Positions 2,379-6,971 of a DNA stretch of 37,250 nucleotides are shown here, in pieces. The DNA comes from Bacteroides sp. OM05-12 (GTDB lineage: Bacteria > Bacteroidota > Bacteroidia > Bacteroidales > Bacteroidaceae). The notes under the pieces were generated by a model. That model saw only the letters and a program-made list of their open reading frames with translations, ran no database searches and was not told the origin of the DNA. A program made the position numbers and the translations under genes. Where the stretch lies: contig NZ_QSUN01000028.1 in assembly GCF_003438995.1 (NCBI RefSeq), positions 1 to 37,250 on the forward strand. The letters run 5' to 3'. Position 1 is the stretch's first letter. Every line of letters starts with the position of its first letter.

Positions 2379-2388
2379 TAAACAAAAA

Positions 2389-2428
2389 AGCCGCCCTCAG
2401 TATTCGCTAATACTAAGGTTTGCGGCTT
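2389..2428 (-). terminator. Terminator downstream of the QEPEKK-repeat gene
   Basis: Long hairpin between two convergent genes. AAGCCGC...CAGTATT (from 2389) pairs with AATACTAAGG...GCGGCTT (to 2428) around a 4-nt loop. On the minus strand it is followed by TTTTTTG, a good intrinsic terminator. On the plus strand the following bases are CCTCTCTC, so it is a weaker stop for the RluA operon. Confidence 0.8.
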
Positions 2429-2461
2429 CCTCTCTCAAATAGAAACGTCTGTGCTTAATTG

Positions 2462-2875
2462 TTACGCTAACTTCATATCAGGACAAGTCGTTTTTTCTTT
2501 TTTTATTGAATCACTAGGTTGTGATTGTTCCTTTTTCTCCGGTTCTTGGGCCATAGCATAAGAAGTTCCGACTTCACCTTTTGGCTTTTCTACAGTAGTG
2601 CTATCCTTTTTTTCCGGCTCTTGAGCCATGGCAAAAGAAACACTTGGGCTTTCAACTACTACAGTGTCTTTCTTTTCTGGCTCTTGAATCACAGCAAAAG
2701 AAATACTTGGACTTTCAACCACTGCTGTGTCTTTTTTCTCCGGCTCCTGCATAAATGCCAATGAATTTTCGGGATTTACTACTGTTGTATCTTTCTTCTC
2801 CGGTTCTTGTGCAAATATAGATAAACTACTACCCATTGTTAATCCTACTACTGCTACATAAACTAACTTTCTCAT
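2462..2875 (-). CDS. Exported QEPEKK-repeat protein, function unknown
   Basis: A 137-aa protein from the start MRKLVYVAVV; another ATG lies two codons earlier at 2881. The signal peptide is about residues 1-22, with a predicted cleavage FA|QEPEKK. The mature part is five QEPEKK units at a period of about 20-25 residues (63 bp in the most regular part). The linkers resemble DTVVVESPSVSFAMA. Most repeats therefore recreate a short hydrophobic stretch and an Ala before Gln, like the signal-peptidase junction. There is no lipobox and no enzyme motif. The protein is low-complexity and rich in Glu, Lys, Ser and Val, so it is probably a disordered periplasmic or surface protein. It is preceded by a sigma-54-like promoter (2939-2955) and lies just downstream of the sigma-54 regulator gene. 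I do not recognise a family. Confidence 0.8.
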   Translation of the reverse strand: MRKLVYVAVVGLTMGSSLSIFAQEPEKKDTTVVNPENSLAFMQEPEKKDTAVVESPSISFAVIQEPEKKDTVVVESPSVSFAMAQEPEKKDSTTVEKPKGEVGTSYAMAQEPEKKEQSQPSDSIKKEKTTCPDMKLA

Positions 2876-2938
2876 AATCATTTGCTTTAATTGTTAATGT
2901 TCTTGCTATTTTCTTGTTTTACCTTCTGAGAAATTAAG

Positions 2939-2955
2939 TTCAAAGCACGTGCCAA
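2939..2955 (-). promoter_or_regulatory. Sigma-54 (-24/-12) promoter of the QEPEKK-repeat gene
   Basis: On the minus strand the sequence TTGGCACGTGCTTTGAA matches the RpoN consensus YTGGCACGrNNNTTGCW at 12 of 14 defined positions. The whole -24 element TTGGCACG is perfect. The mismatches are T for r and A for C in the -12 element. The likely transcript starts near 2928, about 50 nt before the ATG at 2875. The neighbouring regulator (3079-4425) is a sigma-54 activator, which supports the call. Confidence 0.72.
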
Positions 2956-3020
2956 AGTAGTCGTTTATTACTAATGTGTATATTTACAGGTAGTTATGGT
3001 TATATTCTGATTCGTTTGAT

Positions 3021-3070
3021 TGTAGAAAATAGTGAGATGTGTAGAAATTATTGTGGAATAATTCCACAAT
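3021..3070 (-). promoter_or_regulatory. Putative enhancer site (UAS) for the sigma-54 regulator
   Basis: A perfect palindrome, TTGTGGAATAATTCCACAA (3051-3069, extending one base each way), sits about 95-115 bp upstream of the -24/-12 promoter. Two further half-sites TGTAGAA occur at 3021-3027 and 3040-3046, in the same direction as TGTGGAA at 3052-3058. Activators of the NtrC class bind such palindromes about 80-200 bp upstream of their promoters. It also lies 9 bp past the regulator's stop codon, so a terminator role is an alternative, but there is no T-tract and only a minimal loop. Confidence 0.55.
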
Positions 3071-3078
3071 ATCAAATA

Positions 3079-4425
3079 TTATAGATCGATCTGATAAAGT
3101 TTGAGTTTATTATAAAGTGTTTTTCGATCTATGCCCAACAACATGGCAGCTTTGCTCTTATTATTGTTGGTATGGCGTAGAGCTTCTAGAATTTGTTCCT
3201 TTTCTCTTTCTTCATTGTGTAGGGAAATGCTCATAGTCTGTGTTGGCGTTTCAAGAATTTCATTTCCCAATTCATTAATCGAGATAAAGTTCTGTTGCGC
3301 TAACAGTGTGGCACGTTTTACAACATTCCTCATTTGCCGTAGATTACCGGGCCAATGGTACTCTTGTAAGGCGGCAACAGCTTTTGCGTCAAAACCAATA
3401 AGATGCTTGTCTAATTCTTTATTCGCCTGATCAAGAAAGAAATTAGCGAATAAAAGTATGTCTTCCTTTCGATCTTTTAGACAAGGCATCTTTAGAGTGA
3501 ATTCATTGATACGGTGATAAAGATCTTCACGGAAAGTGCCTTTTTCTATGGCAACTTCCAGATTTTCATTCGTTGCGGAGATTAGACGAATATCTACATT
3601 CATTTCTTGGGTAGAACCAACGGGACGAACACGTCTTTCTTGTAGAGCACGAAGTAGTTGTATCTGTACTTCATAGCTAAGATTTCCTATTTCATCCAAG
3701 AAAATAGTTCCTCCATTGGCTGCAACGAAAGCTCCTGTTTTATCTGTTAAAGCTCCTGTGAAGGAGCCTTTAATATGTCCGAAAAACTCCGATGCTGCCA
3801 ACTCTTTTGGTATAGAACCACAGTCAATTGCAATGAAAGGTTTATCAGCACGTTTGCTTAACTGATGAATGCGATGGGCGACATATTCCTTACCTGTTCC
3901 ACTTGCACCGTTTATCAGAACAGACATATTTGTGGGAGCTACCAAACGTACATAACCGAATAGTTGTTTGGCTGCATCGCTTTCACCTTCAAGAAAATTA
4001 TCCTGAACTTTATTATTTATCTGTTCTCCTTTATTCACGGACTGTTTTGGGGGAATAGAATCGTTGTCCGATAAAGCTTCATTGATTTTCTTTAAAAGTT
4101 CATCCGGATTCACCGGTTTGGAAATGTAGTCTTTTGCACCTGATTTGATGGCTTCTACTGCTGTTTGGATGTCAGCATAGCCGGTCATGATGATTAAAGG
4201 GAGCTCCAGACTATGTTCATTCATCCACTTCAATAGGTGAATACCGTCACCGTCAGGTAAGCGAAGATCTGAGAGTACAAGATTAAAATGACCGGATTCC
4301 AATGATTTTCGGGCACGGGCTATATTGCTTGCTGTATCGGCAGCAAAGCCTTTTTTGCATAGCCAAGTTTTAAGCATTACTCCGAATGTGATATCATCTT
4401 CTACTATTAATATAGAAACAGCCAT
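3079..4425 (-). CDS. NtrC-family sigma-54-dependent response regulator
   Basis: A 448-aa protein with three domains. The receiver domain is residues 1-115, with phospho-acceptor D53 and the acidic pair E9/D10/D11. The AAA+ sigma-54 interaction domain is about 145-380. It has Walker A GASGTGKE (173-180), the sigma-54 loop as GSFTGA (220-225, the usual GAFTGA with Ala to Ser) and Walker B IFLDEIG (241-247). The C-terminal Fis-type helix-turn-helix is about 405-445 (KSKAAMLLGIDRKTLYNKL). Once phosphorylated, such proteins form rings that remodel the sigma-54 holoenzyme using ATP. It follows the hybrid kinase gene by 68 bp, on the same strand, and is the last gene of the five-gene run. The gene next downstream has a sigma-54-like promoter and is its likely target. 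Confidence 0.93.
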   Translation of the reverse strand: MAVSILIVEDDITFGVMLKTWLCKKGFAADTASNIARARKSLESGHFNLVLSDLRLPDGDGIHLLKWMNEHSLELPLIIMTGYADIQTAVEAIKSGAKDYISKPVNPDELLKKINEALSDNDSIPPKQSVNKGEQINNKVQDNFLEGESDAAKQLFGYVRLVAPTNMSVLINGASGTGKEYVAHRIHQLSKRADKPFIAIDCGSIPKELAASEFFGHIKGSFTGALTDKTGAFVAANGGTIFLDEIGNLSYEVQIQLLRALQERRVRPVGSTQEMNVDIRLISATNENLEVAIEKGTFREDLYHRINEFTLKMPCLKDRKEDILLFANFFLDQANKELDKHLIGFDAKAVAALQEYHWPGNLRQMRNVVKRATLLAQQNFISINELGNEILETPTQTMSISLHNEEREKEQILEALRHTNNNKSKAAMLLGIDRKTLYNKLKLYQIDL

Positions 4426-4493: not shown

Positions 4494-6971
4494 TTAACAT
4501 AATCCTGAGAACTTCTCGCATTGTACGATAACTTTATCTATTTCCTCTAAGGCAAAGATAGCTTTCTCTTGCATATCTGCGCTGAAAGCCTCATCGCGGT
4601 GTGCTTCGAGCCATGCAAGAAATTGGACACAGCGGGTAGCGTTTATCATTCTGAAAAGCGGCAACATTTTGTGTGCTAATCCGGTAAGATGCTTAGCATC
4701 TGAAGCATCCAAAGCTGTCTGTAATGCGTCACGGTTATTTCTAGTTTCGGAAACGAACGTTCGCAAGATTTTTGCAGCGGCAGCCGGATCGTCTTCCGAG
4801 AAAGTGGTAAGTGCTGCGAATTTTAATTCATGGGAATCAGTATCCAATTGTGCCTTATCGGAGTTTTCGTGCGCTACTTCGGGAATTGAAAAGACACGGC
4901 TTAGTTCATTTAAAGAGAAAGGCTTATGTAAACAATCGGCAAAGCCTTTTGCTTTAAAATCCTCCTCATCCATATCACTCCGTGCCGTGACTGCTATAAC
5001 GGATATACTTCTCGCTTGAGGAATATTGGAACTCCTCAACAGTTCCAATAGTTCAAACCCGTTCATGGCAGGCATCTGTACGTCCGTCAGCAAGATGTCG
5101 AACGATTCATTCTTTAAATATTCAAATAACTCTTCCGGTTGTTCGCAGCATACGGCTTCTACGTTTAGTTGTTTTAGCATTTCCACTGTGAGTTCCAACT
5201 GAATACGGTCGTCGTCAATGAGCAAAGCGCGGGTGGGTTTGGGACTTTTCGGTGATTCGTTTTCCTCTTTTTTTTGAGTTTCGATTATTCCACCAACCGG
5301 GAATAGCGGCAGGCAAACCTCAAAAGAACTTCCTTTTCCGGATATGCTCTCTACTTTTATCGTTCCTTCCAACAAAGCAACCAATTTCTGAGTGATAGAC
5401 AAGCCTAATCCGAAACCTTCTTCTCCCTGTGCGTTTTTCAGGCGGGTGAACTCTTGAAATATTTTATCCTTTTCTTCGTCGGAGATACCTTTACCCGTAT
5501 CTTTTACCGTTAGATATAACTTGGATTCCCGATAGGAAACAAACAGTCCGATGCTGCCTTCCTCTGTAAACTTGATGGCGTTAGATAGTAGATTGTCCGT
5601 AATTTGCCGTATCCGGAAGGGGTCGCTGATGTAGTGCCCATTTAATTCGGGGGCTATTTGGTAATCCAACCTCAGATTTTTCTTCTCGGCTATCGGCTCA
5701 AAGCTAATCTTTATCTCGTCAAACAATTGGTGCGGGTTGAAAGTAACCCGATTTATCTCCACCTTATTGGAGTCGAGCTTGTGGAAATCCAATAAGTCTT
5801 TGACCAACTTCAACAAGTGCTCGGAAGAAGCTTTCATGTTATCCAGATAAAAACGCTGCCTTTCTTCTGTCGTAAGCCGGGACAGCAAATCCGTATATCC
5901 GATAATGGAACCGACCGGTGCTTTGATGTCGTGCGTGATGGTCAACATCAGTTTCTCGCGGGAGACAAGCAAATTCTCCGCTTTTTGTTTGGCAATCTCC
6001 AATTCGCGGCGGTAATGGTTACTTTTTGTTATGTCCCGCCATATCAATATCAGAAACAAAGCGGCTAGGAATGCCGAGCCGATTGCTATTCCACTGATGA
6101 CGCGCATGGAGTGTTGGCGCACCATCCGGTTCTGCTCCAGTTTGTCCAGTGAGCGGCTCATCTCTTCTTCTTCAAAGTCACGGAGAATCTGGTTTATCTT
6201 TGCAGACAGGATTTGACCGTTGTAACGCAGCTTGTTTGCCCTGTTTCTAAGTAATTCCAAGTGCTCCTGACGTTTGTCGCTTATTTGTATCTGTATGTTT
6301 CTCAGGATGACGGCAACCGTGTCCGCCGGATTGTAAGCCTGCACCAACGTGTCGGTGATGTACTCATGCGAGGTGTTAGTTACCGTAGCGGTGTCTTGTT
6401 TTCCGGGTGCGAAAGCCTCTGCCAGACGTTTGAAGAAACCTTTCGGCTTCTTTTGTACCTGATAGGAGTTTTGCCGGACCACTACTTTCTTCTGCACACG
6501 CTCTTCTTTGAGCAACGAATCCTGTTGTGAGATAATCTTCTCTATATTTCGTTGATAAATGCCCGCCGCTGCCGTGTCGTTCATTGCTTTGAGCAAGCTC
6601 AGCATATTTTGTTCTTTCCGGTTGAGCAGTAAGGAGATGCTGTCTACACGTTGTGATTGCACGGAGTCGGAAACGAAAGTCTTGAGGGTATCGATCGAAG
6701 CAAGTGCTTCTTGCATCGCCTTGCGGTAAAGCGGGTAATCATTCAGGCGTCCGACACTTAGCGACTGACCGATAACTTCTGCCTGATAGAGCTTGGCAAG
6801 TGTGTTATTGGTAATCTTTCGCTTGGCGTCCAGTTCGGCTTCGGAAATGTCCGGCTCTGCCAATACCTTCATTTCCTGATACACAAACCATATAGAGAAA
6901 AATAACAATGTGGTCAGCAATAAATAGCCTACCGTCACCTTCGCCCTTATTGATTTGTTTTCCTTCCGCAT
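4494..6971 (-). CDS. Hybrid sensor histidine kinase with receiver and Hpt domains
   Basis: An 825-aa inner-membrane kinase. TM1 is about residues 12-31, an extracytoplasmic helical region about 32-288, and TM2 about 291-311. HisKA contains H347 (THDIKAPVGS). HATPase_c has the N box DNLLSNAIKF (459-468), DTGKGIS (491-497) and GFGLGLS (519-525). A receiver domain (about 580-700) has D630 in LLTDVQMPAMNG. A C-terminal Hpt domain (about 735-825) has H767 in LAHKMLP. The order H347, D630, H767 gives a complete internal phosphorelay, whose last step would phosphorylate D53 of the adjacent NtrC-type regulator. The sensor region has no recognised fold; it contains a Lys/Arg-rich segment around 150-190. 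The start is 9 bp after the MATE stop. Confidence 0.93.
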   Translation of the reverse strand: MRKENKSIRAKVTVGYLLLTTLLFFSIWFVYQEMKVLAEPDISEAELDAKRKITNNTLAKLYQAEVIGQSLSVGRLNDYPLYRKAMQEALASIDTLKTFVSDSVQSQRVDSISLLLNRKEQNMLSLLKAMNDTAAAGIYQRNIEKIISQQDSLLKEERVQKKVVVRQNSYQVQKKPKGFFKRLAEAFAPGKQDTATVTNTSHEYITDTLVQAYNPADTVAVILRNIQIQISDKRQEHLELLRNRANKLRYNGQILSAKINQILRDFEEEEMSRSLDKLEQNRMVRQHSMRVISGIAIGSAFLAALFLILIWRDITKSNHYRRELEIAKQKAENLLVSREKLMLTITHDIKAPVGSIIGYTDLLSRLTTEERQRFYLDNMKASSEHLLKLVKDLLDFHKLDSNKVEINRVTFNPHQLFDEIKISFEPIAEKKNLRLDYQIAPELNGHYISDPFRIRQITDNLLSNAIKFTEEGSIGLFVSYRESKLYLTVKDTGKGISDEEKDKIFQEFTRLKNAQGEEGFGLGLSITQKLVALLEGTIKVESISGKGSSFEVCLPLFPVGGIIETQKKEENESPKSPKPTRALLIDDDRIQLELTVEMLKQLNVEAVCCEQPEELFEYLKNESFDILLTDVQMPAMNGFELLELLRSSNIPQARSISVIAVTARSDMDEEDFKAKGFADCLHKPFSLNELSRVFSIPEVAHENSDKAQLDTDSHELKFAALTTFSEDDPAAAAKILRTFVSETRNNRDALQTALDASDAKHLTGLAHKMLPLFRMINATRCVQFLAWLEAHRDEAFSADMQEKAIFALEEIDKVIVQCEKFSGLC

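Follow-up and report, generated by a model that had tools for sequence, protein, structure and literature searches.

A conserved sigma-54-type promoter and enhancer array behind an NtrC-type regulator gene of Bacteroides, leading a predicted small transcript whose product appears changeable

The window analysed here, the whole stretch of 37,250 bases from Bacteroides sp. OM05-12, carries genes for a hybrid sensor kinase, an NtrC-family response regulator and a small exported protein, with a promoter element and a series of putative enhancer sites between the last two. The features are listed below.

4494-6971, minus strand: hybrid sensor kinase (Pfam: HisKA, HATPase, receiver and Hpt)
3079-4425, minus strand: NtrC-family response regulator (Pfam: receiver, sigma-54 interaction domain and Fis-type HTH)
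3051-3069, no strand: putative enhancer palindrome TTGTGGAATAATTCCACAA, that is TTGTGGAA-TAA-TTCCACAA (scan; recurs in relatives)
3040-3046, no strand: putative enhancer half-site TGTAGAA (motif scan)
3021-3027, no strand: putative enhancer half-site TGTAGAA (motif scan)
2939-2955, minus strand: sigma-54-type -24/-12 element TTGGCACGTGCTTTGAA (motif scan; the element proper spans 2940-2954)
2929, minus strand: approximate transcription start, inferred as 12 bp past the -12 G
2462-2881, minus strand: ORF of the small exported protein, in which EPEKK recurs five times at intervals of 20-25 residues
2450-2457, minus strand: TAAGCACA in the 3' UTR, resembling AGTAAGCACACTA upstream of the terminators of relatives
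2384-2432, minus strand: intrinsic terminator, a hairpin with T-run (2381-2432 folds at -26.4 kcal/mol)

The regulator and the kinase had been described in an earlier note as a sigma-54 activator and a hybrid kinase with a full phosphorelay. The domains for this are found, with the reservation that the Hpt match (E 0.0002) lies below its curated cut-off; the N-terminal part of the kinase, about 330 residues, matched no Pfam family. The translation of the regulator shows a GSFTGA loop, which is of the GAFTGA type of NtrC-family response regulators. The protein scores below the cut-off of each of the best 25 NCBIfam models listed, and under the curated equivalog cut-off for all five of NtrC, AtoC, ZraR, GlrR and LuxO. 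The RpoN DNA-binding domain is found once per genome in all 16 relatives tested.

The small gene encodes a protein with a signal peptide (assigned by eye) followed by an acidic low-complexity tail, for which neither Pfam nor NCBIfam gave a match. The EPEKK-repeat lineage is rare: a clustered set of 5.8 billion yielded 8 proteins at E <= 0.001. The number of repeats varies. The repeat alignment gave one weak match in 399 genomes of the family, too little to place the lineage by species. Downstream, the small gene and a convergent pseudouridine synthase gene flank one hairpin at 2378-2432, which may serve both converging genes. The only Rfam match in the window is to tRNA.

The sole exact match to TGGCAC-N5-TTGM in the 37,250 bases sits inside TTGGCACGTGCTTTGAA, but with one mismatch permitted there are 6 matches against 3.7 expected, so that the -24/-12 element is unconvincing by itself. 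GG at -24 and G at -12 are present at the correct spacing, with ten bases between them; the -12 box reads TTTGAA, with an A in place of the C of the classical -12 GC, a position which is variable in relatives (whose sites had to contain GG and G to be picked up by the pattern). The element had been called near-consensus; its -12 box is not TTGC. The palindrome lies 9 bp past the stop codon of the regulator gene and would be expected 0.02 times in the window with up to 3 mismatches, while TGTRGAA alone is frequent (18 against 10 expected). From the core TGTGGAA-N3-TTCCACA to TGG the distance is 97 bp. The element, the palindrome and the two half-sites thus lie where the earlier note had placed them, and its remark that this promoter differs from the TAnnTTTG kind agrees with the scan: there is no TAnnTTTG in the 150 bp upstream of the small gene, and at least one at 12 of 29 other gene starts tested in the window. 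The regulator gene has a TAnnTTTG 29 bases upstream of its own start.

Conservation of this arrangement in relatives, which had been proposed as a check, was confirmed in the scan of a genome collection with the regulator, which gave at least 80 loci, the best identity among the matches listed being 76%. Among these, the 30 nearest loci are L001-L029 and L031, L030 being cut off. Twenty-four of the 30 have a TGGYAY...TTG element within 700 bp behind the regulator, 16 of these with an exact TGTRGAA-N3-TTCYACA palindrome and the remaining 8 with half-sites; L007 is atypical, its element lying some 250 bp beyond the enhancer array. Loci without an element within 700 bp are L005, L015, L020, L022, L025 and L031, of which L020 and L031 have less than 150 bases of sequence in that region, while a unit lies at greater distance in L015, L022 and L025. 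Among the more distant matches listed, the element is present behind the regulator in L036 and L038 and in none of 47 others (L032-L080 without these two).

A promoter element was counted as a unit when two or more half-sites lay 20-150 bp upstream of it, identical starts being merged. No unit by this strict definition was found within 1.1-1.5 kb in 26 of 70 regulator-downstream regions; six of these 26 contain the RNA segment and loop described below yet fail the strict definition, and in six of the genomes there is a unit at another site (L119, L124, L125, L140, L158 and L159). At L184, L199 and L200 some 250-350 bp separate the enhancer array from the promoter element, far more than at other loci.

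In total 92 units were found, 76 of them small or without an ORF. These 76 comprise 41 small exported ORFs of the family of the window (window included), 3 of a 104-residue protein, 23 ORF-less units with a conserved segment, 3 ORF-less Bacteroides units without it (L130, L024 and L144, the last being the L011 locus), 2 SusC units, 3 of Phocaeicola and 1 of an Alistipes MAG. The segment, 17-nt GTTTATGTTTGTTTGTG, is present without mismatch and together with a terminator loop GTCTATTC in 23 of the 26 ORF-less Bacteroides units (L008, L010, L013, L016, L109, L114, L117, L132, L133, L168, L169, L183, L186, L188-L194, L196, L198 and L202). ORFs inside L194 and L202 run into or past the terminator region and were judged spurious. 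Six further loci (L170, L178, L184, L197, L199 and L200) have the segment with at most one mismatch and the loop, and were left unsorted for missing the strict unit definition. In the coding units the exact segment occurs in 22 of 41, in three of them (the B. fragilis-type L085, L102 and L105) as a non-coding leader copy, the ORF's own copy being altered. The leaders of several B. fragilis-type loci (L001-L003, L101, L102 and L105) contain such a non-coding copy, matching the signal-peptide segment and placed ahead of the real ORF, an arrangement that a duplication would leave; in L029 (B. nordii) the small exported ORF is present in two tandem copies.

In coding loci the segment corresponds to signal-peptide codons, so that a constraint on the protein could explain its conservation there but not in the ORF-less loci. 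What follows the segment also differs between the two kinds of unit. The 80 bases after it (or fewer, to the terminator) were folded and compared with shuffles, leaving out L132, L194 and L198, where the segment lies directly on the terminator. The hairpin z was on average -4.1 (range -6.2 to -1.3, n=20) in ORF-less units and 0.1 (range -3.0 to 1.5, n=20) in coding units, the latter taken from 25 holding the segment with at most 2 mismatches. The loop GTCTATTC occurs in 57 of 70 promoter-led transcripts, a set that includes near-copies; the window is among the 13 without it, and in some of these 13 the contig ends there. Stems around the loop were read by folding each sequence, the MAFFT alignment having placed the loop flanks poorly. 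In 30 loci selected for having the loop, 28 stems were distinct counting A/T flanks, and 19 once the stems had been roughly cut back to their G/C-rich portion. L125 shows a tandem repeat of a terminator half with the conserved loop. Ten Bacteroides loci gave no Rfam match at E <= 0.1.

Both RNA elements, the 17-nt segment and the terminator loop, were sought in the unit of the window and are absent, from which it follows that the protein is the likely product in this genome and the transcript of the window likely the mRNA of a fast-changing exported protein. The ORF-less relatives have a promoter, no ORF, an intrinsic terminator and conserved structure, as a small regulatory RNA would on the level of sequence, and their transcript is probably a small or dual-function RNA. 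The earlier note had seen a secreted repeat protein as the output. An exported ORF is indeed present in the window, but does not appear to be an essential output of the locus, the ORF being absent in many relatives in which promoter, RNA segments and terminator persist. To judge from these comparisons, the protein is the changeable part and the small transcript with its sigma-54-type promoter the constant part.

An alternative is that the transcript is an mRNA only and that the ORF-less loci are decaying pseudogenes with promoter and terminator still left. Coding versions are widespread, the window and the B. fragilis group included, and the exact segment is absent in L011/L144, where the ORF is broken, and in L130 and L024. 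Against decay stand the exact segment in 23 of 26 ORF-less and 22 of 41 coding units, the strong hairpin of varying stem sequence that ORF-less units have where others have the ORF body, and the position of the segment directly on the terminator in L132, L194 and L198. The ORF-less state, scored for 24 rows with L130 among them, requires at least 5 changes on a tree of 62 regulators, made by a quick method and with 18 weak forks and some long branches, and at least 2 on well supported branches alone, so that loss of the ORF, or its regain, probably happened more than once. Together with the covariation of the Phocaeicola RNA described next, these points make the pseudogene explanation unlikely in our view.

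In the sister genus Phocaeicola a different ORF-less RNA, a candidate new RNA, appears to lie behind the same regulator. Its block GAAGATGCCTATGTGTTA is found with at most one mismatch in 32 of 61 genomes. Thirty loci were read: 29 have the promoter element upstream, 25 have two or more half-sites no further than 160 bp from it, and 28 have the 3' part of the regulator upstream in the same locus (L241 and L245 do not). The 18-base block is exact in 29 of the 30 loci, one mismatch being allowed; as it was the search key, this invariance is largely built in. CCCAACCCC, which lies outside the search key, is nearly invariant. The longest ATG frame has 4-13 codons in 26 of 29 loci and 19, 25 and 43 in the others. 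A short frame MKMPMC or MIMKMPMC lies inside the conserved block in L233-L262; MKMPMC is common, with start or stop gone in several loci, and may be a leader peptide or the leftover of a longer ORF. The predicted structure shows two-sided change in 17 of 25 pairs, and 0 of 500 shuffles match it in percent paired, in pairs or in cells that change on both sides, in pair types or in covariation score, the shuffles ignoring kinship and the structure being derived from that same alignment. The covariation score is 0.35, against 0.08-0.15 for slid versions. Rfam gave three weak matches in 8 Phocaeicola loci, all below the gathering score.

The tie between the enhancer array and the adjacent regulator was examined in a palindrome census of 119 genomes from the genus of a B. 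fragilis genome. The pattern TGTRGAANNNTTCYACA has 108 occurrences, against 16 for the backward (reversed-pattern) control, and is found in 56 of 77 genomes with the regulator against 10 of 42 without (Fisher p 3e-7), regulator presence being scored at E <= 1e-180. For pairing with promoter elements, L033-L080 except L038 were omitted, identical 80-base contexts were merged and a palindrome was kept if 150 bp of sequence preceded it and 200 bp followed. Of 70 distinct palindromes, 60 have TGGYAY-N5-TTG within 200 bp on exactly one strand, none on both and 10 on neither. Distances from palindrome end to TGG at the 60 sites fall at 88-89 (7), 96-100 (28), 107-112 (13) and 118-123 bp (8), the other four being 64, 72, 72 and 86. 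These clusters are about one helical turn apart, with a vector strength of 0.71 at a period of 10.5 and 0.72 at 10.75 and a broad maximum (0.69-0.72 from 10 to 11.5); the relatives are not independent, so that the clusters stand on fewer than 60 events. Enhancer-type sites upstream, as at sigma-54-dependent promoters, are thus a regular feature of the predicted promoter. The proposal that promoter and array belong to the adjacent NtrC-type regulator is strengthened by their recurring position behind its gene, the one-strand pairing, the helical spacing, the greater frequency of palindromes in regulator-bearing genomes and the rpoN found in each of the 16 relatives.

The 10 palindrome-bearing genomes scored as lacking the regulator would fit reading of the sites by some other activator. 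The recurring position behind the regulator gene and the association with its presence speak against this, as do G051 and G093, which belong to the genomes scored without it and have palindrome-promoter sites before an RND gene; in these two the E-value cut or an incomplete assembly may conceal the regulator. We hold another activator to be very unlikely, and take the adjacent regulator as the probable reader of the sites.

As for the promoter, primary promoters of Bacteroides are described as having TAnnTTTG at -7 (PMC7366714, as far as the part available to us goes), and the TTTG of the element might belong to such a promoter, the base preceding the final TTG being T in 42 of 50 distinct sites listed (TGG and TTG, with the -12 G, were imposed by the search pattern). 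The TA is missing, however, with T at 5 and A at 9 of the 50 sites at its two positions, the distance from TTGG to TTTG is much too short for -33/-7, a sigma-54 activator gene adjoins the site, and TTGC is frequent at the promoter sites of Phocaeicola. The base following TTG at the 50 sites is A in 21, C in 13, T in 11 and G in 5. A primary-sigma promoter is therefore most improbable here, and a sigma-54 promoter the better description. The position of the palindrome, close behind the regulator stop codon in many loci, would suit a hairpin in the RNA, or a terminator, of the kinase-regulator operon instead of a DNA enhancer. This idea is hardly tenable, since the palindrome also occurs upstream of RND, SusC-like and other genes, has extra half-sites in direct orientation beside it and lacks a following T-run in the sequences printed.

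The earlier note had also seen a self-contained module in this locus, and this part is not supported as put there, like sites being found before RND efflux genes and another small exported protein, which together suggest, on the sequences, a small regulon. Palindrome-promoter sites precede RND membrane-fusion genes in L086, L087, L118, L121, L126, L135, L136, L149, L153-L155, L160 and L161 (identified by protein start, L149 and L121 by family test), the HlyD-type gene of L157 (tested) and the 104-residue exported protein of L081, L128 and L147, which scores above the cut-off of no family. SusC-type genes lie behind such sites at a spacing of 72 in L148 (tested) and L150, with a PepSY-like gene on the other side of the L148 palindrome. 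Four of the 10 palindromes without promoter element precede genes of SusC-like appearance. At L127, L138, L151 and L152 palindromes with extra half-sites lie 150-190 bp upstream of SusC-like TonB-receptor genes (L127 tested, the others by likeness) and show no recognisable sigma-54 element.

That the RNA segment is complementary to efflux-gene start codons is no more than suggestive. The segment makes 15-16 contiguous pairs at the start codon of 7 of 11 RND leaders, where no more than 3 of 500 dinucleotide shuffles do as well; the other 4 leaders have a run of 11 only, reached by 36-89 of 500. A single standard segment served for all leaders but that of B. fragilis. In 168 control starts, some of which resemble miscalled ORFs, runs go up to 14, and the pairing was first spotted by eye (post hoc). 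In duplex energy the standard segment against the 11 RND leaders ranks in the best 6-15% of 163 control gene starts. For the B. fragilis segment the ranks are 1-16%, with 1.2% for L149, which is its own leader; the terminator loop gave nothing in duplex energies against the same 11 leaders. A scan of 8 genomes for the exact motif of one leader gave a single occurrence in each of 3. Apart from the B. fragilis pair the energy ranks do not stand out, and four leaders lack the pairing, so control of the pump by the RNA is a hypothesis, and we do not claim the RND efflux mRNA as a target. It is a tentative and doubtful suggestion that the unit repeatedly switched its output between protein and RNA and that the signal-peptide-derived segment pairs with the start codon of the co-activated RND gene in an incoherent feed-forward loop; if true, the regulator would turn on a pump plus a brake on that pump in gut Bacteroidota. 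In B. thetaiotaomicron bile salts are described as highly upregulating components of two efflux systems (PMC10994844, from the part available to us).

The explanation we propose, and think likely as a whole, is a phosphorelay acting through an NtrC-type activator and sigma-54 on a small transcript with a changeable product. A presumed signal would pass from the hybrid kinase, through its receiver and Hpt domains, by phosphorelay to the NtrC-type regulator, which would bind the TGTGGAA/TTCCACA sites 3' of its own gene. Looping across about 90-120 bp in helix phase would then activate sigma-54 polymerase at 2939-2955, giving a short terminated transcript that would be the mRNA of the exported protein in the window and, in many relatives, a structured RNA without ORF. 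Sister sites would extend this activation by the regulator to RND efflux genes and, within the B. fragilis group, to another small exported protein.

Circuits of this kind are known elsewhere. In Vibrio the LuxO/Qrr system runs from a phosphorelay to an NtrC-type regulator, sigma-54 and small RNAs, and in E. coli the sigma-54 regulator of ZraS/ZraR/ZraP activates an adjacent small exported protein. Unlike these, the regulator here scores 329 bits against a LuxO cut-off of 800 and 367 bits against a ZraR cut-off of 760; Rfam gives no match above the gathering score in the scanned loci, one unit lies beside the regulator, and the exported protein matches nothing in Pfam or NCBIfam. In Enterobacteriaceae the kinase QseE and NtrC-type regulator QseF (GlrK/GlrR) activate the small RNA GlmY from a sigma-54 promoter with upstream sites, in a system which serves envelope homeostasis (PMC6075780, the part available to us). 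The present locus is similar in having an NtrC-type regulator with a kinase, a sigma-54-type promoter, upstream sites and, in relatives, a candidate small RNA. It differs in its hybrid kinase, which has receiver and Hpt domains, in its candidate sites, which read TTCCACA, in a transcript that can code for a protein and in having no Rfam match above the gathering score in the scanned loci. Among Bacteroides small RNAs, to which FopS and GibS of B. thetaiotaomicron belong as do the candidates here, FopS is described as bile-induced and binding near start codons (PMC11697453); unlike the transcripts here, its members have, in the part of that source available to us, primary-sigma promoters, a length of about 65-70 nt and a multicopy family. 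The circuit thus appears to work like known sigma-54 small-RNA circuits, with a regulator that is none of those tested.

An open-licence literature search returned no recognised description of the regulator, its sites or these RNAs, and little on a role of sigma-54 in gut Bacteroides. What the locus offers here is a candidate activator with a DNA site, a rule for the spacing and a list of targets. In addition, an mRNA seemingly became a small RNA, or held both roles, more than once, with conserved nucleotides that outlast the reading frame.
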